From Rhizobiales bacterium 62-17 (GTDB lineage Bacteria > Pseudomonadota > Alphaproteobacteria > Rhizobiales > Beijerinckiaceae), in assembly GCA_001898965.1 (NCBI GenBank), contig MKVW01000004.1, forward strand, positions 1 to 64,000: a stretch of DNA of 64,000 bases, in the 5' to 3' direction. The notes beneath the pieces are model-generated. The model had not been told where the DNA came from and searched no databases. It saw only the letters and a program-made list of their open reading frames with translations. The translations under genes and the position numbers were made by a program. Below are positions 46,712 to 60,928 of this stretch, in pieces; the stretch's first letter is position 1; each line of letters opens with the position of its first letter.

Positions 46712-46754
46712 CCGCCCATGAACCTGCCCATGTGCCTTTTGTCGAACTCCTCAC

Positions 46755-46894
46755 CGTCATTGCGAGGAGCAAAGCGACGAAGCAATCCAGGAGCGCGTGG
46801 TAGAGCATCAAGAAATGCCGGCCACACAGGCCGGTTTCCTTCTATGCTTCCACACCTTTGCCCCTGGATTGCTTCGCTGCGCTCGCAATGACGG
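46755..46894. repeat. Palindromic intergenic element R1
   Basis: Two arms of about 35 bases in opposite orientation, beginning CGTCATTGCGAG and ending AATCCAGG, enclose about 70 bases with a small internal hairpin (GGCC-ACACA-GGCC type). Each arm can also fold on itself (ATTGC with GCAAT). It lies between the LysE gene and ilvH. The arm end (AATCCAGG plus GTGGTAG) is shared with elements R2-R5, so it is a divergent member of that family. Confidence 0.8.
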
Positions 46895-47585: not shown

Positions 47586-47746
47586 TCCGTGTCATTCCCG
47601 ACGCGCCCAGCGGGCGCGAGCGGGAATCCAGAGCGAGTGGTAAAATGATACTTCACTGTAGCCTCTTCGCCGCCACGGACGACGTTCTACCGGTTGCTCT
47701 GGATCCCCGCTCAGCCGCTGCGCGGCTGTCGGGGATGACATCAAGG
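47586..47746. repeat. Palindromic intergenic element R2
   Basis: The left arm has GTGTCATTCCCGAC, a GC hairpin and GCGGGAATCCAGAGCGAGTGGTA; the right arm is its near inverse, TACCGGTTGCTCTGGATCCCCGC, a hairpin and GTCGGGGATGACATCAAGG. About 45 bases separate the arms. It fills the gap between ilvB and ilvH, so the element lies inside the ilv transcript and could fold in the mRNA. Confidence 0.82.
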
Positions 47747-53863: not shown

Positions 53864-53942
53864 AGGCCGCAGCCTCCGTGTCATCCCGGACGCGCTGAAA
53901 GCGCGATCCGGGAACCAGGGGCGAGTGGTAGAGCCCATCGAT
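53864..53942. repeat. Element R3, left arm
   Basis: This arm reads AGGCCGCAGCCTCCGTGTCA, then TCCCGGAC, a small GC hairpin, GATCCGGGAACCAGGGGCG and AGTGGTAGAG, ending in CATCGAT. Its near inverse lies at 54261-54345. Between the two arms there is only the GIY-YIG gene. Four bases separate the arm from the gene's stop codon. Confidence 0.85.
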
Positions 53943-53946
53943 AGTC

Positions 53947-54240
53947 CTAGCCGTTCAACGTCTCATACAAATCATTCCACTGCGGATTGGCCGTCTCGAT
54001 CAGTTGCAGCTTCCAGTCCCGGCGCCACCGTTTGAGTTTCTTCTCGCGTGCGATCGCATCGTCGATCTCGCTATGCTCCTCGTACCAAACGAGCTTCGAA
54101 ACGTCGTGGCGGGCCGTGAAACCAGGGGCGGCTTTCGTCTTATGCTCATGCACGCGTCGGACAAGATCATTGCTCACACCGGTGTAAAGCGTACCGTTGC
54201 GACCACTCGCGAGAATGTAAACCCAATAAGACTGCGGCAT
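53947..54240 (-). CDS. Small GIY-YIG endonuclease inside a palindromic element
   Basis: A 97-residue single-domain GIY-YIG nuclease (YhbQ/UPF0213 type). YWVYILASGRNGTLYTGVSNDLVRRVHEHK carries the GIY-YIG strands (VYIL and YTG), the catalytic Arg and His; the acidic metal residue is likely the Glu in AIAREKKLKRWRRDWK, and NPQWNDLYE forms the usual end. Such proteins cut DNA. The gene is enclosed by two inverted arms of a repeat that also exists without a gene at 55071-55256, which suggests that the nuclease belongs to the element, perhaps helping it spread (inference). Confidence 0.87.
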   Translation of the reverse strand: MPQSYWVYILASGRNGTLYTGVSNDLVRRVHEHKTKAAPGFTARHDVSKLVWYEEHSEIDDAIAREKKLKRWRRDWKLQLIETANPQWNDLYETLNG

Positions 54241-54260
54241 GGGTGGATTCTTGATGGCTT

Positions 54261-54345
54261 CATCGATGCCTCAGTCTACCACACGCCCCTGGATCCCGGA
54301 TCACCTGCTGCGCAGGTGTCCGGGATGACACCAAGGCTGCGGCCT
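54261..54345. repeat. Element R3, right arm
   Basis: The inverse of the left arm: CATCGATG, CTACCACACGCCCCTGGAT, CCCGGATC, the hairpin CACCTGCTGCGCAGGTG, TCCGGGATGACACC and AAGGCTGCGGCCT. Outside the hairpin loop, almost all positions match the left arm. It begins 20 bases upstream of the GIY-YIG start, so the arm may also carry or influence the promoter of that gene. Confidence 0.85.
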
Positions 54346-54444
54346 AGGCTTCACCCGAAGCCAACTTTGCCACCGCCGCCCCGCCCCACCCTCGCCACGA
54401 TCACAACCGATCTTGCCCGCTCCTTCCTCTCCGGGGACTCTGCA

Positions 54445-55053
54445 ATGTTTTCACGACGACGTTTACTCGCCGCCGCTGGCGGCCTGGCCGCGCTCGACCT
54501 GGTGCCGGCCACGGCCGCCCCCGCCGAGCCATGGGCGAAGAAACTGTTGCAGGCGGCGCAGGCGCAGATTGGCGTCACCACGCGCTATGCGCCAGCCTAT
54601 GCGCGCATCGGCTTTCCCAATGGCGACGTGCCGCGCGAGGGCGGGGTGTGCACCGATGTGATCATCCGCGCCTATCGCGATGCCTTCGCGCGCGATCTCC
54701 AGCAATTGGTCCATCGCGACATGGCGGCGAATTTCGCGCTCTATCCCAAGACATGGGGGCTCAGCCGGCCTGACCCCAATATCGATCACCGCCGCGTCGG
54801 CAATCTGCAAACCTTCCTGCGCCGTCACGGCCGCGCTTTGCCCGTGACGCGCGTCGCCACCGATTACGCGCCGGGCGATATCTACACCTGCCTGCTGCCC
54901 GGCAACCTGCCGCATATCGGCTTCGTCGCCGACAAAGCCGGCAGCGATGGCGCGACGCCTTTGATCATCCACAACATCGGCCAGGGCGCACGCCTGGAAA
55001 ACCGCCTGTTCGACTTCCCCCTCACCGGCCACTACCGCTATCCGGTGGCGTGA
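54445..55053 (+). CDS. DUF1287 secreted protein
   Basis: A 202-residue protein with a twin-arginine-type start (MFSRRRLLAAAGGLAALDLV) and cleavage near ATAAPA. The DUF1287 domain shows GVTTRYAPAYARIGFPNGDVPREGGVCTDVIIRAYR, with an exposed Cys, RPDPNIDHRRVGNLQTFL, YAPGDIYTCLLPGNLPHIGFV and PLIIHNIGQGA. The Cys/His arrangement is NlpC/P60-like, so a cell-wall amidase role is plausible but unproven. I chose ATG at 54445 because the frame upstream overlaps the GIY-YIG gene and repeat. Confidence 0.87.
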   Translation: MFSRRRLLAAAGGLAALDLVPATAAPAEPWAKKLLQAAQAQIGVTTRYAPAYARIGFPNGDVPREGGVCTDVIIRAYRDAFARDLQQLVHRDMAANFALYPKTWGLSRPDPNIDHRRVGNLQTFLRRHGRALPVTRVATDYAPGDIYTCLLPGNLPHIGFVADKAGSDGATPLIIHNIGQGARLENRLFDFPLTGHYRYPVA

Positions 55054-55070
55054 GATGGCCAATACGCCGA

Positions 55071-55256
55071 AGCCTTCGTGTCATCCCCGACAGCCGCGCA
55101 GCGGCTGAGCGGGGATCCAGGGGCAAATGGTAGAATAATGATCGGACCTGCGGCGCTCGATCGTCACGCCGCGCTTTACCACTCGCCCCTGGATTCCCGC
55201 TCGCGCCGATGTCTAAAAATTTTGGCGCGTCGGGAATGACACGAAGGCTGCGGCCC
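55071..55256. repeat. Palindromic intergenic element R4 (no gene inside)
   Basis: The left arm (55071-55134: AGCCTTCGTGTCATCCCCGA, hairpin, GGGGATCCAGGGGCAAATGG, TAGA) and the inverted right arm (55175-55256: TTTACCACTCGCCCCTGGAT, hairpin with AAAATTTT, GGGAATGACACGAAGGCTGC, GGCC) are separated by about 40 bases. The arms match those of R3, but no gene lies between. The right arm reaches the stop codon of the flavoprotein gene. Confidence 0.87.
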
Positions 55257-60753: not shown

Positions 60754-60928
60754 AAGGCCGAAACCTCGGCGTCATTCCGGATACTTGTGCAGCAAGTGAT
60801 CCGGCAGCCCGGGGGGCAAAGGCCGCGATGTTGCTGATGGATCGGGAGCGGCCATCAACCATGCAGCATTCTACTCTGTAGCCTCTTGATCCCGGATCGC
60901 CTGCGGCGCCCAGGATGACACCAAAATT
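60754..60928. repeat. Palindromic intergenic element R5 (degraded)
   Basis: The left part (AGGCCGAAACCTCGGCGTCA, TTCCGGAT...GATCCGG) and the right part (CTCTTGATCCCGGATCGCC, CAGGATGACACC) are recognisable inverse relatives of the R3 and R4 arms, but with more changes and a missing AGTGGTA box. It lies between the GlcD-like gene and the Bug gene. Confidence 0.65.

Follow-up and report, generated by a model that had tools for sequence, protein, structure and literature searches.

A gene for a 97-aa GIY-YIG nuclease was found between two inverted copies of a CGTC-tagged hairpin in a 64,000-nucleotide stretch of DNA from Rhizobiales bacterium 62-17 (the window, by which we mean this whole stretch). 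We consider that gene and arms together probably form a REPtron-like mobile unit, and that the gene-less hairpin pairs scattered through the genome would be its non-autonomous copies served in trans. At the level of sequence comparison, our analysis shows the linkage of the gene to the hairpins, the pairing of paralogs with their own arms, the constraint on the hairpin, and the presence or absence of whole units. We further infer that the nuclease cuts the hairpins and drives their spread.

The gene and its enclosing arms

The following features of the window are referred to throughout.

46754..46894, no strand given: gene-less hairpin pair, stem type GTCATTGCGAG, inner GTGGTAGAG at left
47589..47741, no strand given: gene-less hairpin pair, stem type GTCATTCCCG, inner GTGGTA/TACC boxes
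53864..53942, plus strand: left arm, a CGTC-type tagged hairpin in the order GTC tag (outside), stem, loop, stem, CCAG (gene-facing), inner box GTGGTAGA
53947..54240, minus strand: GIY-YIG nuclease gene, 97 aa (Pfam PF01541)
54261..54345, minus strand: right arm, the left arm inverted (from arm comparison and folding)
55066..55255, no strand given: gene-less hairpin pair of the family of the gene's arms (arms 55066-55134 and 55173-55255)
60771..60920, no strand given: degenerate pair of this kind of hairpin, recognised by eye at a single match to the core

An earlier note on this DNA had described near-perfect inverse arms around a 97-codon GIY-YIG gene, and this was confirmed. The outer segments of the two arms (53864-53891 and 54318-54345) and their inner segments (53905-53932 and 54275-54302) are each 28 nt long and 93% complementary, and the sole Pfam match of the protein was the GIY-YIG domain (PF01541, E = 2.6e-16). 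The gaps of 4 and 20 bases between gene and arms were computed from the arm ends and gene ends of that note. Of the shared runs it named, CATCGAT is weak evidence, being itself palindromic. Each of six arms from the window folds by itself (DNA MFE -14.8 to -17.2 kcal/mol; folding z -3.5 to -5.2), with equally stable structures in 0 of 200 shuffles for every arm. The core GTCATYCCSG was observed seven times in the window against 0.96 expected, a count that 0 of 100 shuffles attained.

These arms appear to fit the CGTC-tagged REPs surveyed by Di Nocera et al. (2013, PMC3733652). As described in that survey, such repeats carry an unpaired (C/T)GTC tag, a stem of 8-9 bp starting with A-T, a loop of 4-5 and a CCA tail, occur mainly as head-to-head pairs, are richest in Alphaproteobacteria, and take in Neisseria dRS3 and Rickettsia RPE-4 and RPE-6. 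The window arms begin TGTCATCCC, with an unpaired CGTC or TGTC tag, and carry AACCAG and ATCCAG, with the CCA tail; the right arm retains the A-T at the start of the stem, the left arm ends AACCA, and 33 of 40 places in the host genome are pairs. Their stems are two-part with a bulge and longer than 8-9 bp. The arms of homologs elsewhere do fit the stem rule, e.g. a 29-nt class with 9 pairs and a 5-nt loop.

The same survey reported a search for transposase genes near the repeats and stated that they "apparently lack a dedicated transposase" (PMC3733652). No transposase gene is linked to the repeats in that paper, whereas here a GIY-YIG gene is regularly enclosed. From the survey's intragenic set, repeats in hypothetical proteins of <120 aa were left out as plausibly spurious, which is a possible reason why the link to GIY-YIG genes was missed.

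Constraint on the hairpin was examined in arms picked solely by their GTCA...TCCA ends, using the length that was commonest by distinct sequences (29 nt). There were 35 distinct sequences of this kind. At pairs 2-9, 31-33 of them had a Watson-Crick pair, where the composition of the columns would predict 12.9-30.3; double changes were seen, and several positions used three or more pair types. Such a Watson-Crick excess with varied pair types indicates that the hairpin is conserved while the sequence of its stem changes.

The arms also occur without the gene. The pair reported earlier at 55071-55256 belongs to the same family as the arms of the gene but is not identical to them in sequence (72-89%). 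A query with the element gave at least 135 matches in the 5.66-Mb host genome, both strands counted. Outside the gene's own arms we observed at least 73 arm places in at least 40 spots, including the window's 55066-55255 pair; 33 of the 40 spots were pairs (9-72 nt apart) and 7 were singles, all of these counts being lower bounds (scores were computed for 40 of 129 candidates). At E <= 1e-3 the host genome has a single gene of the GIY-YIG family, with three further matches at E 0.08-0.18. Dispersed arms accompanied by one gene or a few are thus seen in the host and also in a genome with three paralogs described below. The pair at 46754-46894 is of the GTCATTGCGAG CGTC type, and the host's lone GIY-YIG gene has arms of another stem type. 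The inner GTGGTAGA box at 46754-46894 is similar to the one in the unit with the gene, which suggests that a single enzyme may act on several stem types; with several stem types and a single family gene in the host genome, the pairing is not one-to-one here.

Fourteen positions of the enzyme were invariant in 27 homologs hand-picked out of 157 with <75% mutual identity, among them Y8, Y19, G21, R29, H33, E66 and N85. Apart from G21 these correspond to the GIY-YIG catalytic set Tyr, Tyr, Arg, His, Glu and Asn. The family also has a specific conserved C-terminal stretch, NPxWxDL. The structure model of the 97-aa protein had a pLDDT of 91, and its closest solved fold was UPF0213 BH0048 (1zg2; E 8e-4, TM 0.56), the sole match below 1e-3. 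The same protein was the nearest solved relative by sequence (E 5e-4). The next ten fold matches (ranks 2-11) were Slx1 chains, at E values of 1e-2 to 6e-2 and a probability of 0.99-1.0; UvrC came below them. Values of dN/dS were 0.05-0.22 in the 10 computable of 14 pairs (three others were saturated, one was without an open frame, and dS exceeded 1 in four of the ten), and at the sequence level these show purifying selection on the enzyme. Several other origins were set aside: a classical DDE insertion sequence, there being no transposase domain and no target duplication seen (at junctions that have diverged); a phage origin, since a comparison with 50,697 phage records gave no match at E 1e-5; and intron homing, the protein being single-domain.

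Gene and hairpins in other genomes

Of 150 related genomes, 67 (counting the host) contained a homolog at E <= 1e-10; the other 83, many of them incomplete, were without a match at this threshold. The related genomes gave 113 places in 66 genomes, of which 110 were examined and three at contig ends were left out. For named genomes the best 80 of 164 relatives were kept as loci, and 11 of the 31 plasmid records that matched were examined. Loci with <200 bp on one side were dropped (5 of 110 related, 5 of 80 named and 0 of 11 plasmid loci). Among the records, NZ_CP119142.1, NZ_CP119140.1 and CP090106.1 carry "plasmid" labels on chromosome-sized Neisseria gonorrhoeae records and a 3.7-Mb Sinorhizobium meliloti record. 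Two-sided flanking was called strong if any one of three tests was positive: an inverted-flank score >33, a CGTC core on both sides, or a tagged hairpin on both sides. The score counts any inverted repeat, CGTC or other, and its threshold was chosen after the control scores were known. A loose tag matcher (195 and 216 of 1388 control positions matched on the two sides, or 14-16%) and a 9-bp stem rule, which overlooks true 8-bp stems, were excluded from the counts.

Strong two-sided flanking was observed at 79 of 105 related, 56 of 75 named and 10 of 11 plasmid places, far above the control positions (2 of 334, 5 of 665 and 1 of 94, respectively), and homologs are thus regularly bounded by arms, a point that the earlier note had proposed to check. 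Any flanking evidence was found at 98 of 105, 74 of 75 and 10 of 11 places, compared with 64 of 334, 89 of 665 and 17 of 94 control positions. A chance association was rejected by these controls, which were random and often coding, so that open reading frames from the same loci make the fairer comparison. For 59 of 105 genes, including the one in the window, a CGTC core was present within 200 bp on each side; among distant ORFs (flanks >450 bp away) this was so for 2 of 113, and among neighbouring ORFs for 6 of 151. With the core counted on any side, the figures were 80 of 105 genes against 12 of 113 distant and 89 of 151 neighbouring ORFs. A core or hairpin on just one side was seen at 28 of 105 related and 21 of 75 named loci, and 9 of 191 loci gave no flanking signal by any of the three tests. 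Under a stricter null, in which one locus's left flank was matched with another's right (600 pairs), 50 of 109 loci exceeded the 99th percentile, a number held down because the arms of different loci resemble each other.

Inward tagged hairpins were densest next to the gene: the first 50 bp had 0.318 per 50 bp, and beyond 400 bp the density was 0-0.015 per 50 bp (110 loci, the window's included), so neither a lack of arms at most homologs nor arms at random distances was found. Two layouts recurred, one with the gene within a single pair and one with the gene flanked by two complete pairs. The earlier picture of a gene inside one arm pair accordingly applies to many homologs but not to those between two complete pairs. 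On inspection by eye, dRS3-like hairpins surround the gene in Neisseria gonorrhoeae, and GTCATTCTGAG hairpins do so in the cyanobacterium Planktothrix.

Paralogs with their own arms and the gain or loss of whole units

Three paralogs are present in one genome (G070), and every one of them is flanked on both sides by a copy of its own hairpin pair of about 195 bp, the two copies being closely similar. Queries with these pairs gave 117, 59 and 80 matches within the genome (both strands counted) and at most two in any of seven other genomes, the first two of the three repeat families cross-matching in part. Across 25 multi-copy genomes (69 genes), the similarity between a gene's own left and right flanks had a median of 60, compared with 27 between paralogs. 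Forty-one of the 69 genes had an own-flank score >33 and above every paralog value, 9 scored >33 with some paralog's flank equally or more similar, and 19 scored 33 or less. Protein identity and flank similarity were correlated (rho 0.66) over 71 within-genome pairs, which are non-independent and to which recent duplication of whole units contributes. Within 3 kb of a GIY-YIG gene in the three-paralog genome (G070:C1:2624479-2627662), a gene-linked pair of about 194 bp is repeated in tandem with a 243-bp step and 98-99% identity, a sign of recent local amplification.

The earlier note had asked for empty sites in sister strains, and these were found in sister genomes and in species of Azospirillum, Shinella and Sphingobium. 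In Azospirillum lipoferum 4B an arrangement of pair, gene and pair lies between sufB and sufC, where nothing but a short spacer is present in A. oryzae, A. ramasamyi and strain B510. In eight further Azospirillum records about 85% of the query was covered, in two pieces, and together with the three empty sites this makes a gain in 4B the simplest reading. Four of seven Sphingobium plasmids examined had the unit (in one of them with a frameshifted gene), two had a single fused hairpin and one had neither. In the TomTYG64 plasmid the fused form is one symmetrical hairpin, GTCACCCCGGGTCAAGCCCGGGGTGAC, where relatives have arm, gene and arm, and TomTYG74 has a less perfect form of it at the matching spot; these solo hairpins could be an excision scar or an insertion target. 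In Shinella the unit was present in two and absent in two of those examined, with diverged junctions. The sister genome G022 has three copies, one of them orthologous to the window's. At the host site corresponding to a second copy (site A) a different CGTC pair is found, and at the site of another (site B) the unit is absent and no hairpin is present. By the rules used for the flanking counts, neither a core nor a tagged hairpin was present in seven empty stretches, which represent four loci (three stretches from Azospirillum, two from Shinella, one from Sphingobium, and host site B). At the compared sites we saw no target duplication and no fixed end; the junctions differ by a few dozen target bases.

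A further difference between the host and G022 concerns positions 54347-55255 of the window, 909 bp that hold the adjacent gene and the gene-less pair and are lacking in G022. This stretch ends at repeat arms, which suggests loss or gain by recombination between arms.

Mechanism, alternatives and related systems

The unit resembles the REP/RAYT REPtron as presented in the literature (PMC2817692, PMC8266576). In both, a gene lies between inverted tagged palindromes, sometimes whole BIMEs, as in E. coli, where rayt lies between BIME-2s (PMC2817692); few genes are accompanied by many gene-less repeats; and enzyme and repeat are paired. Unlike the RAYT system so described, the window unit has the tag CGTC in place of GTAG, and a GIY-YIG enzyme (PF01541) in place of an IS200/IS605-family tyrosine transposase (Transposase_17). 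The gene between two inverted REPs that characterizes a REPtron is therefore found in the window, but the tyrosine transposase that characterizes a RAYT is not, PF01541 being the only Pfam match. In this reading the unit would work as REP/RAYT does, with an enzyme outside the RAYTs. No paper linking GIY-YIG genes to CGTC repeats was found among the papers listed from the open PMC literature, and the string "palindrom" does not occur in the main text of the 2006 survey of the GIY-YIG superfamily (PMC1564403).

Among GIY-YIG proteins, UPF0213 (1zg2) is likewise small and single-domain, and is the closest solved relative by both sequence and fold, but the family of the window enzyme has its own C-terminal NPxWxDL stretch. 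We know of no published association of UPF0213 proteins with repeats. Slx1 is eukaryotic and has a further domain and a partner, Slx4. It has the GIY-YIG fold and, according to the titles of its structure entries, acts on branched DNA. In contrast to the role proposed here, Slx1 is not known to act in mobile elements. Homing endonucleases of the GIY-YIG type, I-TevI for example, have the fold and the catalytic residue set in common with the window enzyme. The latter differs from them in lacking extra DNA-binding domains and in being enclosed by repeats that often occur gene-less.

In the mechanism that we propose, the enzyme would recognise its own arms as hairpins or cruciforms, exposed in single-stranded DNA during replication, and would nick them in or close to their unpaired feet, GTC and CCA. 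Host repair or replication would then copy or insert the released hairpin DNA elsewhere. GIY-YIG enzymes act by hydrolysis, so the joining step would have to be supplied by the host, and this would fit the absence of a clean target duplication. That CGTC REPs are mobilised by cognate GIY-YIG nucleases through nicking and host joining, as a second chemical route that takes in the UPF0213-like subfamily described below, is a wider proposal on which we regard the odds as even.

The most serious alternative, although a rather unlikely one, is that the gene is a free-standing homing gene which cuts hairpin pairs, or the stretch that separates the two arms, and is copied into these pairs through repair, the arms being a target that spread by other means. 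GIY-YIG is a classic homing fold, and many of the genes do lie inside a single pair. The different CGTC pair in the host at site A, and the fused hairpin that two Sphingobium plasmids carry in place of their relatives' full unit, could also be read as targets of this kind. The seven empty stretches, however, had neither core nor tagged hairpin for such a gene to enter, and many genes sit between two whole pairs, an arrangement that simple homing into one pair does not yield. The co-variation of arms with enzyme inside genomes is likewise at odds with homing, as is a protein made up of one 97-aa domain with GIY-YIG as its only Pfam match.

It is improbable, in our view, that the nuclease is instead a caretaker that resolves the hairpins formed by repeats at replication, in the manner of Slx1 or SbcCD, and is retained because it makes the repeats tolerable rather than mobile. 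A fold nearest to UPF0213 and, weakly, to Slx1, purifying selection and the small number of genes relative to repeats would all suit such a role. But an enzyme acting in trans need not sit within its own repeat, and this one does; separate paralogs in one genome have separate repeat families, and the unit has been gained and lost. Hitchhiking, in which a small accessory gene would come to lie by chance near repeats that occupy the DNA between genes, has very little to recommend it. CGTC repeats are indeed dense in some of these genomes, and 12 of 113 distant ORFs have a core on any side, yet the two-sided contrast of 59 of 105 with 2 of 113, the repeat families particular to each paralog and the presence or absence of whole units all speak against it. 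The reading as a REPtron-like mobile unit is the one that we favor, and the earlier proposal of an autonomous element and its gene-less derivative, REP/RAYT-like with a GIY-YIG nuclease, draws support from the flanking, the empty sites and the dispersed arms.

What moves the CGTC REPs, a group that abounds in Alphaproteobacteria and to which Neisseria dRS3 and the Rickettsia RPEs belong, was a question that the 2013 survey did not answer. The GIY-YIG enzyme is a strong candidate for the driver of this widespread repeat family, and with a 97-aa candidate and cognate repeats for each genome the mobility of CGTC REPs becomes testable in vitro. If the proposal is true, a GIY-YIG route would be added to the known ways in which bacterial palindromes move, and a role would be provided for many proteins annotated merely as "GIY-YIG nuclease family protein".

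A second GIY-YIG subfamily was observed with another palindrome. UPF0213-like genes had been meant as a negative control, and a CGTC core or hairpin was found at 0 of 6 of them, but 2 of the 6 had another inverted palindrome. In the UPF0213-like subfamily (L259, L260 and L261-L289) a flanking palindrome is frequent, typically of the form CCTCAT..TGAGG..CTCGAA. Nineteen of 35 loci (31 distinct places) had an inverted-flank score >33, three of the 19 being more distant matches with CGTC-type flanks. Among loci at >=55% identity, 16 of 21 scored above all 150 controls, for which the maximum was 29.
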